This document shows positions 4,698 to 14,718 of a stretch of DNA of 14,813 nt, piece after piece. Position 1 is the stretch's first letter; every line of letters starts with the position of its first letter. Source of the DNA: Oscillospiraceae bacterium. Lineage in GTDB: Bacteria; Bacillota; Clostridia; Saccharofermentanales; Saccharofermentanaceae. Under the pieces are notes generated by a model. The model had not been told where the DNA came from. It ran no database searches and worked only from the letters and a program-made list of their open reading frames with translations. The position numbers and the translations under genes are program-made. Where the stretch lies: positions 1-14,813 of the forward strand of contig CACXGG010000077.1 of NCBI GenBank assembly GCA_902767145.1. Direction: 5' to 3'.

Positions 4698-5924
4698 TTA
4701 CCCTTCTATGGCAGTTGTGGCTGCCGCCTCGGATTCATCCACGATACCAGCCTGGATATCAGCCATCAGGGCATCGTAAGCCTCGTGGGTGATACCGTAG
4801 TCAGAACCCTTGAGAAGGGATTCCAGGATGACGAAGGCCACATTGTTTATCCTGGTCTGGAGAACATCAGTACCATCCTCGGTCATAAGGACCTCATCCA
4901 GTACCTCAGTGGAATCGAGATAAGTTCCCCTGATCATACCTCCGAACTCCTGAAGGTTCAGGTTCTTTGTCTCCTTCATATCATCCAGGGCATCGAAAAA
5001 GTAATCTCCGCTGTCGAAGAAAACGATGGGGATATTCGCTTCATCAAAGGGAACATAATCCGACTTATGTACCGTTACTTCCCTGTAGACATCATCAGTG
5101 CCGTCGCCGTTGACGTCAGCCACGATATTCGATTCGTTGTAAAGAAGGCTGAAGCCGTTAGTGGAAGCAAGAGTGTTGTCATAGGCAACGTCATATGCCT
5201 GATAGAGCTTTCTTCTCATGGCATATTTCTGGGAAAGGTCCAGTGAGTTAAATCCGGCACTGGCATATACCTTGTCACCCGAGTAGATACTGTCGATACA
5301 GTACATGACCTCGATGGACTGCTGCTCGGCAGAAGACAGTGTGTTATAGAAATGTGTAGCACCCATAAAGTCCCAGGAGCCGGCACCAAAGGCCACGATC
5401 ACCACATCAAATCCTGTCTTGTAATTCTGGATCTCCTTGGCAATGGTCATCAGGGTGGCGATACCCGATGCGTTGTCTGAGATACCGTCGTAGGAATAAT
5501 CAGAAGGCACCTCAGATGATGAATAAGCATCATCATAGTGGGCTCCGATGACTACAGTCTTCCTGATATCGGAATAATTACCCTCATCGTCTGCAGCGAG
5601 GAAGCCATCTCCCTCTATCCTGATAATGTAGTTGGCGGAGGTGGAGCCGTATACATTGGAGAAAGTCTGGGTCTCGACTTCATAGCCAAGCTCCTCGAAC
5701 TCCTCCTTTATCATCTGGCCTGCCTGGGCCTCACCTTCCGAAAAGGCTTTTCTGTAAGGGCATGCCTGGGCGAACTCCCTGGCAAAATCAGCTCCGTAGG
5801 TGCCGTAATCAGCAGGAAGGAGAGACTTTTCCGCCTCCTCGTCATCGGAACAGCCTCCCAGAGGCATAAGGATAAAACATGATGCCATAAGAGCGGCAAC
5901 TGTCTTCAGGATCTTCTTTGTCAT
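4698..5924 (-). CDS. M28-peptidase-like lipoprotein with a degraded active site
   Basis: 408 residues. A basic N-terminus, hydrophobic stretch and lipobox L-G-G-C (Cys25) mark a lipoprotein anchored on the outside of the membrane; an acidic linker follows. The fold matches M28 zinc aminopeptidases: G-A-H-Y-D-D with H129 and D131, and S-D-N-A-S-G with bridging D150. The next family signature, normally F-G-A-E-E-x-G-L-x-G-S, reads F-G-A-G-S-W-D-F-M-G-A, so Gly182-Ser183 replace the catalytic Glu and a zinc-ligand Glu. D211 in C-I-D-S fits the fourth ligand. The S-D-H element reads S-D-Y (288-290), and the final Y-H-T zinc His is not found in F-F-D-A-L-D-D (309-315). An Asp-rich loop at 270-278 has the D-x-N-x-D-G-x-x-D pattern of calcium sites. 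Its start overlaps the stop of the AroB-like gene as ATGA. It is probably a binding protein or altered hydrolase, not a standard peptidase. Confidence 0.85.
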   Translation of the reverse strand: MTKKILKTVAALMASCFILMPLGGCSDDEEAEKSLLPADYGTYGADFAREFAQACPYRKAFSEGEAQAGQMIKEEFEELGYEVETQTFSNVYGSTSANYIIRIEGDGFLAADDEGNYSDIRKTVVIGAHYDDAYSSSEVPSDYSYDGISDNASGIATLMTIAKEIQNYKTGFDVVIVAFGAGSWDFMGATHFYNTLSSAEQQSIEVMYCIDSIYSGDKVYASAGFNSLDLSQKYAMRRKLYQAYDVAYDNTLASTNGFSLLYNESNIVADVNGDGTDDVYREVTVHKSDYVPFDEANIPIVFFDSGDYFFDALDDMKETKNLNLQEFGGMIRGTYLDSTEVLDEVLMTEDGTDVLQTRINNVAFVILESLLKGSDYGITHEAYDALMADIQAGIVDESEAAATTAIEG

Positions 5925-6964
5925 TTATCATCTACCCCGCTTATTACCATAAGTCTCTTTGTAAAGACAGCCAGGGCCTCGTCGGTATCTGCCGTCCTGA
6001 CGATCCATCTTGAATCGGAAAGATCCACAAAATCGATCATCCTCTTACCCTGTCTTCTGAGGGAATCCTCCAGTGTCTTGACGATCATCTTAACCGGAGC
6101 GTCCCGGAGCATCACCGGAAGACCCAGTGCTTCATAGATCCTGGACAGGGGCTGTCTCCTTCTTTCATCTACAGACGCCAGAAGGCTCAGGGCAAGGGCC
6201 TCGCCTTCCGTATAGTTCATAAACCTGTAATAGCCTTCGATGGCACCGGCAAGCTCATTTCCAAGGGTCAGGAGCCTGGGATCCTTCTTCTCTATCCTGG
6301 TATGGGATGTATAGATCCTCCCCAGATATTCCCGAAGATCTCCCGGATCCTCAAGGCCTGTGATGAGCTCAAGATCGTCCAGGATGGCATATCTGATGAC
6401 TGCCGCATAACCGTTGGACCTGACCTTTGAAGGGATGGTCCTGTCAAAGGAGGGATCGATCATAACAAGGTCCGGATCAAAGGGGACCGAGAGCTCATCC
6501 TTCCTGCCGGACACATTGAGCCTTGCTTTTCTGGCAACGCTTCCCTCTATCATGGCATTGAGAGTCGTGGGTACGGCGATAAAGCCGATACCGGGATCGA
6601 ATATCTGCGCGGCAAAACCTGCTGCGTCAAGAACGCTGCCTCCCCCCAGGGCGATCATATAGTCACAGGGGCCAAAACCGAAGTCTGTGAGATATTTAAG
6701 GATCTCTTCAACGACAGAAAGCTTCTTTCCCGTATCCATGTTAAGGAGGGGGATCAGCACCGGCTTTACGCCTCTTTCGATGAACTGGTTCTCGAAACGG
6801 TTGTAATAATAACCGCTTACGGCGCGGTCAGACACCACGGCCACCTTAAGGTCCTTGGGATCCTTAACGCCGGTATGCTCCAGGACATAGGCTGCAACCT
6901 GGTCGAAAGCCACGCCCAGACCGCATAAACAGTGGTATCGTCTGTCACAATTTAAGATATCCAT
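5921..6964 (-). CDS. AroB-like (dehydroquinate synthase fold) protein lacking the zinc ligands
   Basis: 347 residues, the usual AroB length. AroB converts DAHP to 3-dehydroquinate using NAD and zinc. The NAD-binding half is well kept: L-G-G-G-S-V-x-D-x-x-G-F-A-A at 106-119, V-P-T-T-L at 131-135, K146 and N150 in the S-V-x-x-K-x-x-x-N segment, and F-D-P-D-L-V-M-I-D at 162-170. The metal half is not. G-L-A-E-V-I-K-Y reads G-Y-A-A-V-I-R-Y (185-192), so the Glu ligand is A188. G-H-T-F-G-H-A-I-E reads G-N-E-L-A-G-A-I-E (235-243), so both His are lost. L-H-G-E-A reads T-E-G-E-A (252-256), so the third ligand is E253. The start ATG has no clear ribosome-binding site. A diverged function or pseudoenzyme is likely; an iron-type or glycerol-1-phosphate dehydrogenase fits the motifs less well. 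Confidence 0.85.
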   Translation of the reverse strand: MDILNCDRRYHCLCGLGVAFDQVAAYVLEHTGVKDPKDLKVAVVSDRAVSGYYYNRFENQFIERGVKPVLIPLLNMDTGKKLSVVEEILKYLTDFGFGPCDYMIALGGGSVLDAAGFAAQIFDPGIGFIAVPTTLNAMIEGSVARKARLNVSGRKDELSVPFDPDLVMIDPSFDRTIPSKVRSNGYAAVIRYAILDDLELITGLEDPGDLREYLGRIYTSHTRIEKKDPRLLTLGNELAGAIEGYYRFMNYTEGEALALSLLASVDERRRQPLSRIYEALGLPVMLRDAPVKMIVKTLEDSLRRQGKRMIDFVDLSDSRWIVRTADTDEALAVFTKRLMVISGVDDK

Positions 6965-7049: not shown

Positions 7050-8525
7050 ATGAAGATCAGAACGAGATTTGCGCCCAGTCCCACGGGTTTCATGCACGTA
7101 GGAAACTTAAGGACAGCGCTCTATGAATTCCTTACCGCCAAGCACGAAGGCGGAGATTTTATCTTAAGGATCGAGGATACAGACCAGGAAAGATTCGTTG
7201 AAGGTGCCACAGACGTCATCTACAACACTCTCAAGACTGCAGGCATCACCCACGACGAAGGTCCCGACATCGGCGGCGATTTCGGTCCCTATGTCCAGAG
7301 CGAGAGGCTTTCCATGTATAAGCCCTATGCCGAGCAGCTGGTAAAGGAAGGCAAGGCATATTACTGCTTCTGCACAAAGGAGCGTCTTGAAGAGCTGAGG
7401 GCTTCCGCCAAGGAAGGCGAAGTCGTAGGATATGACAGGCACTGCAGGAACCTCTCCGAGGAGGAAGTAAAGAAGAACCTGGATGCCGGTATCCCCTATG
7501 TCATCAGGCAGAAGGCTCCCCTGGAAGGCGAATCCACATATCATGATCTTGTCTACGGAGATATCACCATCCCCAACGAGGAGCTGGACGACCAGATCCT
7601 CATCAAGGCTGACGGATTCCCCACATATAATTTTGCAAACGTTATCGACGATCACACCATGGGCATCACCCATGTTGTAAGAGGAAGCGAATACCTCTCC
7701 TCAACTCCCAAGTATAATGCCCTCTACGATGCATTCGGATGGGAGATCCCCACATATATCCATCTTCCCCTCATCATGGGAAAGACAGTGGACGAAAACG
7801 GAGAGACCACAGTATCCAAGCTTTCCAAGCGTCACGGCAGCACAGGCTTTGAGGACCTGGTAAAGGACGGCTACCTCCCTGAGGCGATCATCAACTACAT
7901 CGCTCTCCTTGGCTGGGCACCCGCCGGCGAATATGAGAACCGTGAGATCTTCACCATGGATGAGCTCATCAAGGCATTTGATATAAAGGGCATCTCCAAG
8001 TCCCCTTCCGTATTCGACTACGATAAGCTCCTGTGGATCAACGCAGAATACATAAAGGCCATGGACGATGATACATTTATCGCTCATGCAAAGCCCTTCT
8101 TCGATAAGTACGGTATCTCAGATGACAAGTATCCCCTTCTCATTGAGATCTTAAAGCCCAGGATCACAAAGTTCACTGAGATAGAAGAGAAGCTTGCCTT
8201 CCTCGCTGACTACCCTGATTTCGACCTGGCTCTTTTCGAGCACAAGAAGAGCAAGTCCACCAGGGAGACATCCATCGATGCCCTGGAGGCAGCAACGAAG
8301 ATCCTTGAGGGTACTGACTGGACAAGGGAAGCTATCTCCGGAGCCATGACAGACCTGGCTGCATCAAAGGAAGTAAAGAATTCCGTGATAATGTGGCCTG
8401 TCAGGATCGCGGCAGCAGGCGTTGCCGTTACCCCAGGCGGATGCGCCGAGGTACTTATCCTTCTCGGCAAGGAAGAATCCATGAGAAGGATCAACAAAGC
8501 ATTGGGAAGACTGAAAGGAGTATAA
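7050..8525 (+). CDS. gltX: Glutamate--tRNA ligase
   Basis: 491 residues, normal for bacterial GluRS. It charges tRNA-Glu with glutamate using ATP in the cytosol. Class I signatures: [11 protein letters not shown] at 9-19 (the HIGH element is H-V-G-N) and K-L-S-K-R at 257-261 (the KMSKS element). A zinc-type knuckle is suggested by C106-x-C108 and Y128-x3-C132; the His found after the last Cys in E. coli is Asn134 here. The insert [10 protein letters not shown] before the KMSKS element is of the kind I associate with clostridial GluRS. The C-terminal helical anticodon domain (about 330-491) is complete. glnS begins 4 bases after its stop. With a dedicated GlnRS next door, this enzyme is more likely the discriminating form that charges only tRNA-Glu. 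Confidence 0.97.
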
Positions 8526-8529
8526 GATA

Positions 8530-10191
8530 ATGGCTGAGAGCAAGCATTTTATACACGAGATCATAGACGAGGAACTTAAGGAAGGCGGAAGATGCTACGG
8601 CCAGACCGTCCATACCAGGTTTCCTCCCGAGCCCAACGGCTACCTTCACATAGGTCACGCCAAGGCTCTTGAGATAGACTTCGGTACAGCAGAAAAATAC
8701 GGCGGTATGTGTAACCTCCGTATGGACGACACCAACCCCACCAAAGAGGATGAGGAATATGTCGACGCCATAAAGGAAGACATCAAGTGGCTCGGTCACG
8801 ACTGGGGCGACAGGTTCTTCTATGCTTCAGAGTATTTCGAGAAGATGTACGGCTTTGCCGTGGAGCTCATCAAGAAGGGCCTTGCTTACGTCTGTGAGCT
8901 TACTCCCGAGCAGATGAAGGAGATGCGCGGAGATACGACTACTCCCGCCCAGAGCCCCTTCAGGGACAGACCCGTCGAGGAGAGCCTGGATCTTTTTGAG
9001 CGCATGAGGAACGGCGAGTTCGAAGACGGCTCCATGACCCTGCGTGCAAAGATCGATCTTGCCTCCGGAAACTTCAACATGAGAGATCCGGTCATCTACA
9101 GGATCAACCGTCTTCCCCACCACAGGACTGGAAACGAGTGGTGCATCTACCCCATGTACGATTTCGCACATCCCATCGAGGACGCACTTGAGGGTATCAC
9201 CCATTCCCTCTGCTCCCTTGAGTTCGAGAACCACAGACCTCTCTACGACTGGGTGGTAAACAACATCTCCGTTGAGACAAAGCCCAGACAGATAGAGTTC
9301 GCAAGGCTCGGTATCACCCACACTGTCCTTTCCAAGAGAAAGCTCAGGAACCTTGTTGAGACAGGCATGGTATCAGGCTGGGACGATCCCAGGATGCCTA
9401 CCCTCTGCGGCCTCAGAAGAAGAGGATATACCCCCGCCTCCATCCGTGAATTCCACGAAAAGAACGGCGTATCCAAGGTCAACTCCGTAGTTGAATACGC
9501 ATTCCTTGAGTACTGCCTGAGAGAGGACCTCAATAAGAACGCAAGACGTGCCATGGCAGTCATCGATCCCATAAAGCTCGTCATCGACAACTATCCCGAG
9601 GGACAGACAGAGGAGTTCGAGGTAGAGAACAATCCCGAAAAGCCCGAGGACGGCAAGAGGATCGTAACCTTCTCAAGAGAACTCTGGATCGAGCGTGAGG
9701 ACTTCATGGAGGAACCTGCAAAGAAGTACTTCCGCCTCTTCCCCGGAAACGAGGTAAGGCTCAAGTCAGCATACGTCATCAAGTGCACAGGCTGCGATAA
9801 GGACGAGAACGGCAACGTTACCTGCGTCCATGCAGAATACGATACGGAGAGCCGCGGCGGCAACACTGCTGACGGAAGAAAGATCAAGGCTACCATCCAC
9901 TGGGTAGACCAGAATACGGCAGTCGATGCTGAGATCAGGCTCTACGACCGTCTCTTCACCATCGAGGCTCCCGATCTTGCTGACGTTAACTATCTTGATT
10001 ACGTAAACCCCGACTCCCTAACAGTAGTAAAGGGCGCCAAGGTAGAGGCTTCACTGGCAGACTGCAACAAGGAAGACCGTTTCCAGTTCCTGAGGATCGG
10101 CTACTTCTGTGCAGACAACAGAGATTCCTCAAAAGATCATCTCGTATTCAACAGAGCCGTATCCCTTAAGGACAGCTACAGACCGGAATAA
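8530..10191 (+). CDS. glnS: Glutamine--tRNA ligase
   Basis: 553 residues, almost the length of E. coli GlnRS (554). It charges tRNA-Gln directly with glutamine. The class I catalytic domain shows [12 protein letters not shown] at 32-43 and V-L-S-K-R at 266-270. R-M-D-D-T-N-P at 64-70 and G-W-D-D-P-R-M-P at 283-290 are GlnRS/GluRS-family hallmarks. The two beta-barrel anticodon domains occupy about 345-550. Its ribosome-binding site, AAAGGAG, overlaps the last codons of gltX, so the two are co-transcribed and probably coupled. Many Bacillota lack GlnRS and make Gln-tRNA by amidation with GatCAB; a GlnRS in such an organism is usually viewed as acquired. Confidence 0.97.
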
Positions 10192-14361: not shown

Positions 14362-14718
14362 CTTCCGACACGGCCGGTAAGCCGGGTTCTGTAATGACGA
14401 TCATCTGTCTAGACCCGATGTTTCCACCGGGTTCAAGCCATCTCCTCAAGGCCCGCGGACAACGGTTATGCCTTTCCACGATGTTGCTCCGGGTGGGGTT
14501 TACAAGGCCGGTATGTCTCCATACCGCCGGTGAGCTCTTACCTCGCCTTTTCATCCTTACCTTCATCCGAAGATGAGGGCGGTTTCCTTTTCTGTTGCAC
14601 TTTCCTTAAAGTCACCTTCACCGGGAGTTACCCGGCACCCTGTCCTGTGGAGCCCGGACTTTCCTCACGCACCGGCGTTAGCCCTCAATGTGCCCGCGAT
14701 CGTCTCGGCCGACTCGGA
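14362..14718 (-). ncRNA. rnpB: RNase P RNA, bacterial class A
   Basis: The catalytic RNA that trims the 5' leader from pre-tRNA. On the minus strand the conserved 5' core GAGGAAAGTCCGGGCTCC (about 14653-14670) is followed by A-C-A-G-G-A-C-A-G-G-G-T-G-C-C. Later come A-A-A-C-C-C-C-A-C-C-C-G-G-A-G-C-A and the 3' core ACAGAACCCGGCTTACCGG. The ends pair as helix P1: TCCGA with TCGGA and CGGCC with GGCCG, around a 2x2 internal loop. The length of about 357 and the overall layout fit class A rather than the Bacillus class B form. Ends are placed from P1 and may be off by a few bases. It lies about 37 bases upstream of the purM start. Confidence 0.96.

Follow-up and report, generated by a model that had tools for sequence, protein, structure and literature searches.

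A conserved dehydroquinate synthase-fold family with replaced metal ligands, encoded beside an M28-type lipoprotein gene

We found that the window, the whole stretch of 14,813 nucleotides analyzed here, encodes a member of a stable protein family (F1) that has the predicted fold of dehydroquinate synthase (DHQS, AroB) and its NAD-binding residues and that has largely lost the metal ligands of this enzyme. The adjacent gene encodes an M28-type lipoprotein (F2), a second enzyme-like protein without a catalytic residue. This adjacent gene, the many lost substrate-site residues, and a relative that retains the metal go beyond the first-pass annotation of this DNA; new here are the stable F1 family, its metal-retaining member, and the tie to F2. 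Judging from the sequences compared, F1 could be an old dehydroquinate synthase paralogue that no longer makes dehydroquinate and would serve mainly as a non-catalytic NAD(H) binder, sharing one envelope-related task with F2. We give this reading close to an even chance. The coordinates of all features are collected in Table 1.

Table 1. Position of F1, F2, key F1 codons and neighboring genes in the window
Feature	Position	Strand	Remarks
F2, M28-type lipoprotein gene, 408 aa	4698..5924	-	Lipobox LGGC (by eye); PF04389, 57.8 bits
Overlap of F1 stop and F2 start, 4 bp	5921..5924	-	From coordinates; F2 directly downstream of F1
F1, AroB-like (DHQS-fold) gene, 347 aa	5921..6964	-	ATG to stop, frame intact
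E253 codon, replaces third (ligand) His	6206..6208	-	His in 35/35 AroB rows, 9/77 F1 rows
G240 codon, replaces second His of GHxxGH motif	6245..6247	-	His in 35/35 AroB rows, 8/77 F1 rows
N236 codon, replaces first His ligand	6257..6259	-	His in 35/35 AroB rows, 2/77 F1 rows
A188 codon, replaces Glu metal ligand	6401..6403	-	Glu in 35/35 AroB rows, 1/77 F1 rows
NAD-binding Gly-Gly-Gly codons, residues 107-109	6638..6646	-	Gly in 77/77 F1 rows
Glutamyl/glutaminyl-tRNA synthetase-like genes	7050..10191	+	Divergent from F1; usual F1 neighbor in family f1

The F1 frame had been described as intact and full-length, which it is; its strand, which had not been given, is the minus strand. The protein of the window (P0001) matches the Pfam sugar phosphate cyclase superfamily profile PF01761 with 72.5 bits, above the gathering score of 24.2, and reaches 105.8 bits against the NCBIfam aroB equivalog TIGR01357, under the cut-off of 305. 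The predicted AlphaFold model, which was built with nine viral AroB-type rows added and leans on AroB, can be overlaid on solved DHQS along 328 residues, as expected of a DHQS fold. No signal-like stretch was seen in F1 residues 1 to 40 by a crude Kyte-Doolittle test (best 19-mer, 1.2).

We then aligned 114 distinct homologous rows from the fetched loci and compared 35 canonical AroB rows with 77 F1-type rows. L071 and L072, which both carry the full E/H/H/H set, were excluded from both groups. The 77 F1 rows are best-hit or hand-chosen loci from the 116 genomes with F1, and the genus of the window is over-represented among them. Fifty-six rows, defined by a score cut, make up the genus set; genus row L150, excluded by this cut (395 bits), likewise has A188 and E253. 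According to the first-pass annotation, Ala, Asn, and Glu replace the Glu, His, and His metal ligands, and Gly replaces the second His of the motif. The column-matched alignment against 35 of 35 AroB rows with E/H/H/H confirmed these four substitutions (A188, N236, E253, and G240).

The same loss extends to the orthologues. None of the three metal ligands is kept in 68 of the 77 F1 rows, one is kept in seven, two in a single row (G095), and three in a single row (G182). The Glu ligand is missing in 76 of the 77 rows, and this, together with a dN/dS ratio of about 0.04 (see below), argues that the metal loss is more than chance. P0001 contains only three histidines (residues 11, 30, and 221), and none of the His columns reaches 95% conservation among the 56 genus rows; no alternative His-based site is therefore evident. 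The relative with the full Glu/His/His set, L137:5968-6969 (+) in genome G182, lacks the Asp and the Arg that are invariant in the substrate loop of AroB and is a possible intermediate.

A misaligned metal site was also considered and could be ruled out, since the P0001 stretches NGYAAVIRYA, LLTLGNELAGAIE, and YTEGEALA align to the AroB Glu/His stretches and no His column of the genus is conserved.

The NAD-binding signature is kept, as had been noted earlier: K80, G107 to G109, D113, P132, T133, K155, and D170, to which we assigned an NAD-site role, are present in P0001 and in 76 to 77 of the 77 F1 rows. P0001 has an Asp just before K80; 37 of the 77 rows have a Glu at this position. The substrate and catalysis columns were likewise assigned by us, after the A. 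nidulans enzyme. Here, the AroB-invariant substrate-site residues R, K, R, N, H, K, and K are kept in 1, 1, 0, 4, 8, 0, and 3 of the 77 F1 rows, respectively. The Lys kept in one F1 row is replaced by R191 in the genus, and one loop has lost both its AroB-invariant Asp and its AroB-invariant Arg in all 77 rows, the Asp column being deleted in the genus. Other substrate positions are partly kept, namely Lys 146 (31/77), Asn 156 (35/77, otherwise mostly Asp), Asp 140 (20/77, otherwise mostly Glu), and Lys 221 (13/77, otherwise mostly Arg). Additionally, F1 has acquired new conserved residues: R247 (77/77), Y251 (74/77), R47 (69/77), and E237 (69/77). R191, E237, and R247 are invariant in the 56 genus rows, R191 being found in 61 of the 77 F1 rows, and R191 lies at, and E237 beside, a former active-site position.

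Column entropies were calculated with similar rows down-weighted. Because the AroB columns had been picked as invariant, only the contrast between column groups within F1 counts. The nine NAD columns have entropies of 0 to 0.19 bits in F1, whereas the metal columns (mean entropy percentile of 0.55 in the genus and 0.66 in the family) and the former substrate columns (0.49 and 0.54) are on average like the background. The main exception among these columns is R191, which is invariant in the genus. Positions 188 (2.35 bits) and 240 (3.00 bits), as well as positions 124, 146, and 303 (2.13, 2.44, and 2.34 bits), are freely variable within the genus. This conservation pattern fits the earlier proposal that the protein would bind an NAD-like ligand and would not perform the known reaction.

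F1 is under strong purifying selection. Compared with its nearest relative (95% identical), the one pair analyzed gave a dN/dS of 0.026/0.68, i.e., about 0.04; the corresponding single pair for F2 gave 0.051/0.99. A separate canonical AroB of 363 amino acids, with E/H/H/H kept and 342.2 bits against the cut-off of 305, is present in the same genome (78% complete), where its gene adjoins a prephenate-dehydrogenase-like gene (named from sequence). The F1 gene was found in 32 of the 35 genus genomes, and all 32 have at least one further AroB-type match. The canonical AroB of this genus (L001:1297-2385 (+), L064, L066, L067, and L073) has a branch of 1.05, which is long relative to that of the AroB of two sister genera. 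Genome G020 encodes a third AroB homologue (L071) with intact E/H/H/H, a branch of 3.21, and 108 bits to the F1 profile.

We found F1 matches at an E value of 1e-66 or better in 116 of the 188 genomes of the order (107 from family f1 and 9 from f3). In a class sample of 391 genomes, 60 had a hit at 1e-53 or better; 12 of these hits, all from the same order, reached at least 400 bits, and the other 48 did not exceed 207.6 bits. The 18 weaker hits that were fetched all carry E/H/H/H. No relative was found in the viral contigs scanned with A1, and a pattern scan of genome contigs beyond the class sample returned two near relatives, in the MAGs RGIG8390 (water buffalo rumen) and UBA9425; the UBA9425 protein is 67% identical to the F1 of the window. 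F1 is a stable family that, among the sampled genomes, is confined to its own order. A tree was built from 53 chosen rows; in it, the 28 F1 rows form one side of a branch with a support of 100/100. Seen from AroB, G182 branches first (90/80) and G180 follows (93/85), both under the tool's strong-support mark. Since the F1 stem is long (1.22) and the G180 branch is long and of odd make-up, the depth and the first branching order of F1 are uncertain.

F2 scores 57.8 bits against PF04389, above the gathering score of 21.3, and the M28 core is present. We aligned its key positions to 2ek8 and 1cp7. In the FGAEE motif, the first Glu, which is catalytic in peptidase M28, is G, S, or A in all 38 readable rows (39 rows, one being a fragment). 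The second Glu is kept in three rows. At the position of the late His, 22 rows have Tyr, 2 have Phe, and 14 have His; His 129 is kept in 38 and Asp 131 in all 39 rows. In the F2 of the window, G182-S183 stand where Glu-Glu is expected and Y290 where His is expected. Because the first Glu is lost throughout and the second Glu and the late His are mostly lost, F2 is very probably not a peptidase. Its best solved relative is PDB 9oqa, an autotransporter, with 97 bits against profile A2 and a common GDK.YA.AG.NS stretch.

F1 and F2 are same-strand neighbors, F1 followed by F2, in 112 of the 116 genomes. The exceptions are G140 and G180, which carry the two genes on separate contigs, each close to a contig end; G097, with an F2 fragment beside F1 (L146); and G182, in which F2 is on the opposite strand with one gene between F1 and F2. 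Both genes are present in 107 of the 115 f1 genomes, seven have neither, none has F1 alone, and one (G096, at a contig end) has F2 alone. The seven genomes without either gene are 64 to 88% complete, so that this absence may be partly technical. F2 has a wider range than F1 and was found, at an E value of 1e-40, in 178 of the 188 order genomes and, in the class sample, in all 16 genomes of the order and in none of the 375 others. It occurs without F1 in f2, f4, and part of f3 and is thus independent of F1 there. That F1 and F2 lost catalysis jointly was ruled out: the F2 Glu is missing even in genomes that lack F1, and the two losses are therefore not linked in time.

The names of the divergent tRNA synthetase-like genes were assigned by us from sequence. 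At L135, one gene lies between F1 and these genes, and at L149 one of the two only was called. Several f3 loci have two Rrf2-like regulators just upstream, and some f3 loci also have a PLP-dependent sulfhydrylase-like gene upstream (names from sequence); these genes may indicate a role in metabolism instead of the envelope. The F1 neighbor genes name no pathway. At Rfam gathering scores, RNase P RNA class A (14362-14716, minus strand, 282.1 bits) was the only match in the window, and none was found upstream of F1 or gltX. Furthermore, we observed a Peptidase_S11-like family (D-Ala-D-Ala carboxypeptidase-like), represented by L161:9304-10758 (+) with 71.5 bits and by 12 other rows (e.g., L057, L058, L135, L138, L151, and L163). 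Its gene and either the M28-like gene or F1 are divergently arranged in the listed f2 and f3 loci and in G095 of f1, and the Ser of its SxxK motif is replaced by Ala, Val, and others (by eye). The S11-like protein may represent a third enzyme-fold protein without a nucleophile at the F1/F2 locus.

F1 probably has a new job, given the lost metal ligands and substrate residues, the kept NAD residues, the strong selection, and the pairing with F2. In the reading to which we lean, F1 would be cytoplasmic, bind NAD(H), and act mainly without catalysis, possibly as a sensor or an adaptor, with a domain closure that would depend on NAD(H). F1 and F2 would be made together for one envelope-related task, with F1 inside and F2 outside the cell. 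Against this reading, F1 has no signal-like stretch and F2 is surface-lipoprotein-like, so that direct contact between them is not expected and the link is only genetic; F2 also occurs in many genomes that lack F1. We also considered a two-gene module in which both proteins lack enzyme activity, the cytoplasmic DHQS-fold protein reporting the redox state through bound NAD(H) and the M28-fold lipoprotein acting at the surface, so that both jointly adjust the envelope. This version appears unlikely to us; the S11-like (PBP5-like) protein, encoded divergently nearby in some f3 genomes and in G095 of f1, would be its candidate third enzyme-fold protein, seemingly without a nucleophile.

Our preference for a non-catalytic NAD(H) role is due to the free variation of positions 188, 240, and several substrate positions within the genus. 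The same variation, including positions 124, 146, and 303, speaks against F1 being a novel enzyme (a reductase, dehydrogenase, or lyase) that would depend on NAD(P)(H) and need no metal, with an active site formed by R191, E237, R247, and their neighbors, as does the incomplete conservation of E237 and R191 across the F1 rows. We nevertheless regard such an enzyme as quite possible, if doubtful. The NAD site is intact, and the invariance of R191, E237, and R247 in the genus counts against our main reading and would suit a new catalytic site as well. Similarly, the partly kept substrate positions 146, 156, 140, and 221 would argue against a non-catalytic protein, the upstream sulfhydrylase-like gene of some f3 loci favors an enzyme, and a metal-free enzyme of the same superfamily, in which the Asp ligand is replaced by Asn or Arg, has been published (PMC5125639).

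If F1 still bound a metal through changed ligands, carboxylates such as E237, E243, E253, and E255 would be the candidates. Indeed, all 56 genus rows have Glu at position 237, and at position 253 Glu occurs in 48 and Asp in 5 of them. However, position 253 is His in nine F1 rows and Ser or Pro in some others, the genus has no conserved His column, and positions 188 and 240 vary freely, which leaves this metalloenzyme a very slim chance. Only a little less improbable is a prozyme that would form mixed dimers with canonical AroB and tune the shikimate pathway. The further AroB-type match in each of the 32 F1-positive genus genomes and the long branch of the genus AroB would be compatible with it, but in the loci viewed F1 lies beside F2 and not beside recognized shikimate genes, and in two further f1 genera that carry F1 the AroB branches are ordinary (L165 and L166). 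A functionless, decaying aroB duplicate would explain the lost catalytic residues. We take this explanation as refuted for the family, and its likelihood as close to nil, in view of the low dN/dS, the conservation with new invariant residues, the open frames in two bacterial families, and the adjacency of F2 in nearly all genomes. This agrees with the first-pass argument, drawn from the intact frame, against simple decay.

DHQS, which converts DAHP to dehydroquinate, is the textbook case of an enzyme dependent on zinc and NAD. Other sugar phosphate cyclases include EEVS, DDGS, DOIS, and the EboD clade; EboD belongs to a six-gene operon, none of whose genes was noticed here. Compared with 3-dehydroquinate synthase (AroB, TIGR01357; 105.8 against 305 bits), F1 is without the metal Glu/His/His and many substrate residues, and its gene lies next to that of an M28-type lipoprotein and not beside shikimate genes. 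F1-type genes may well be labeled aroB by automatic annotation. F2 is like peptidase M28 in its PF04389 match, its M28 core, and its His 129 and Asp 131; unlike it, F2 is without the first Glu of FGAEE, mostly without the second, and often has Tyr for the late His. In the literature searched, mostly outside the subscription journals, we found no metal-less family of the DHQS branch described. EEVS and DDGS have three metal-ligand positions, according to a figure legend of PMC4426668, and these are missing in F1. DHQS and the polyol dehydrogenases are treated as having one common metal-based mechanism in PMC5760197. The earlier statement that relatives keep the metal set stands for the AroB rows (35/35), but the neighboring Fe-ADH family has metal-free maleylacetate reductases (PMC5125639). 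F1 would resemble these reductases as a metal-free member of the DHQ-FeADH superfamily with a replaced ligand position (PMC5125639), and its profile and fold score suggest that it belongs to another branch. Since the order contains proteins at every stage from three metal ligands to none, the proposed transition from metalloenzyme to pseudoenzyme is testable protein by protein. Depending on which reading of F1 holds, the DHQS fold would be able to act as an NAD(H) binder by itself or to carry metal-free chemistry, as in the Fe-ADH family.
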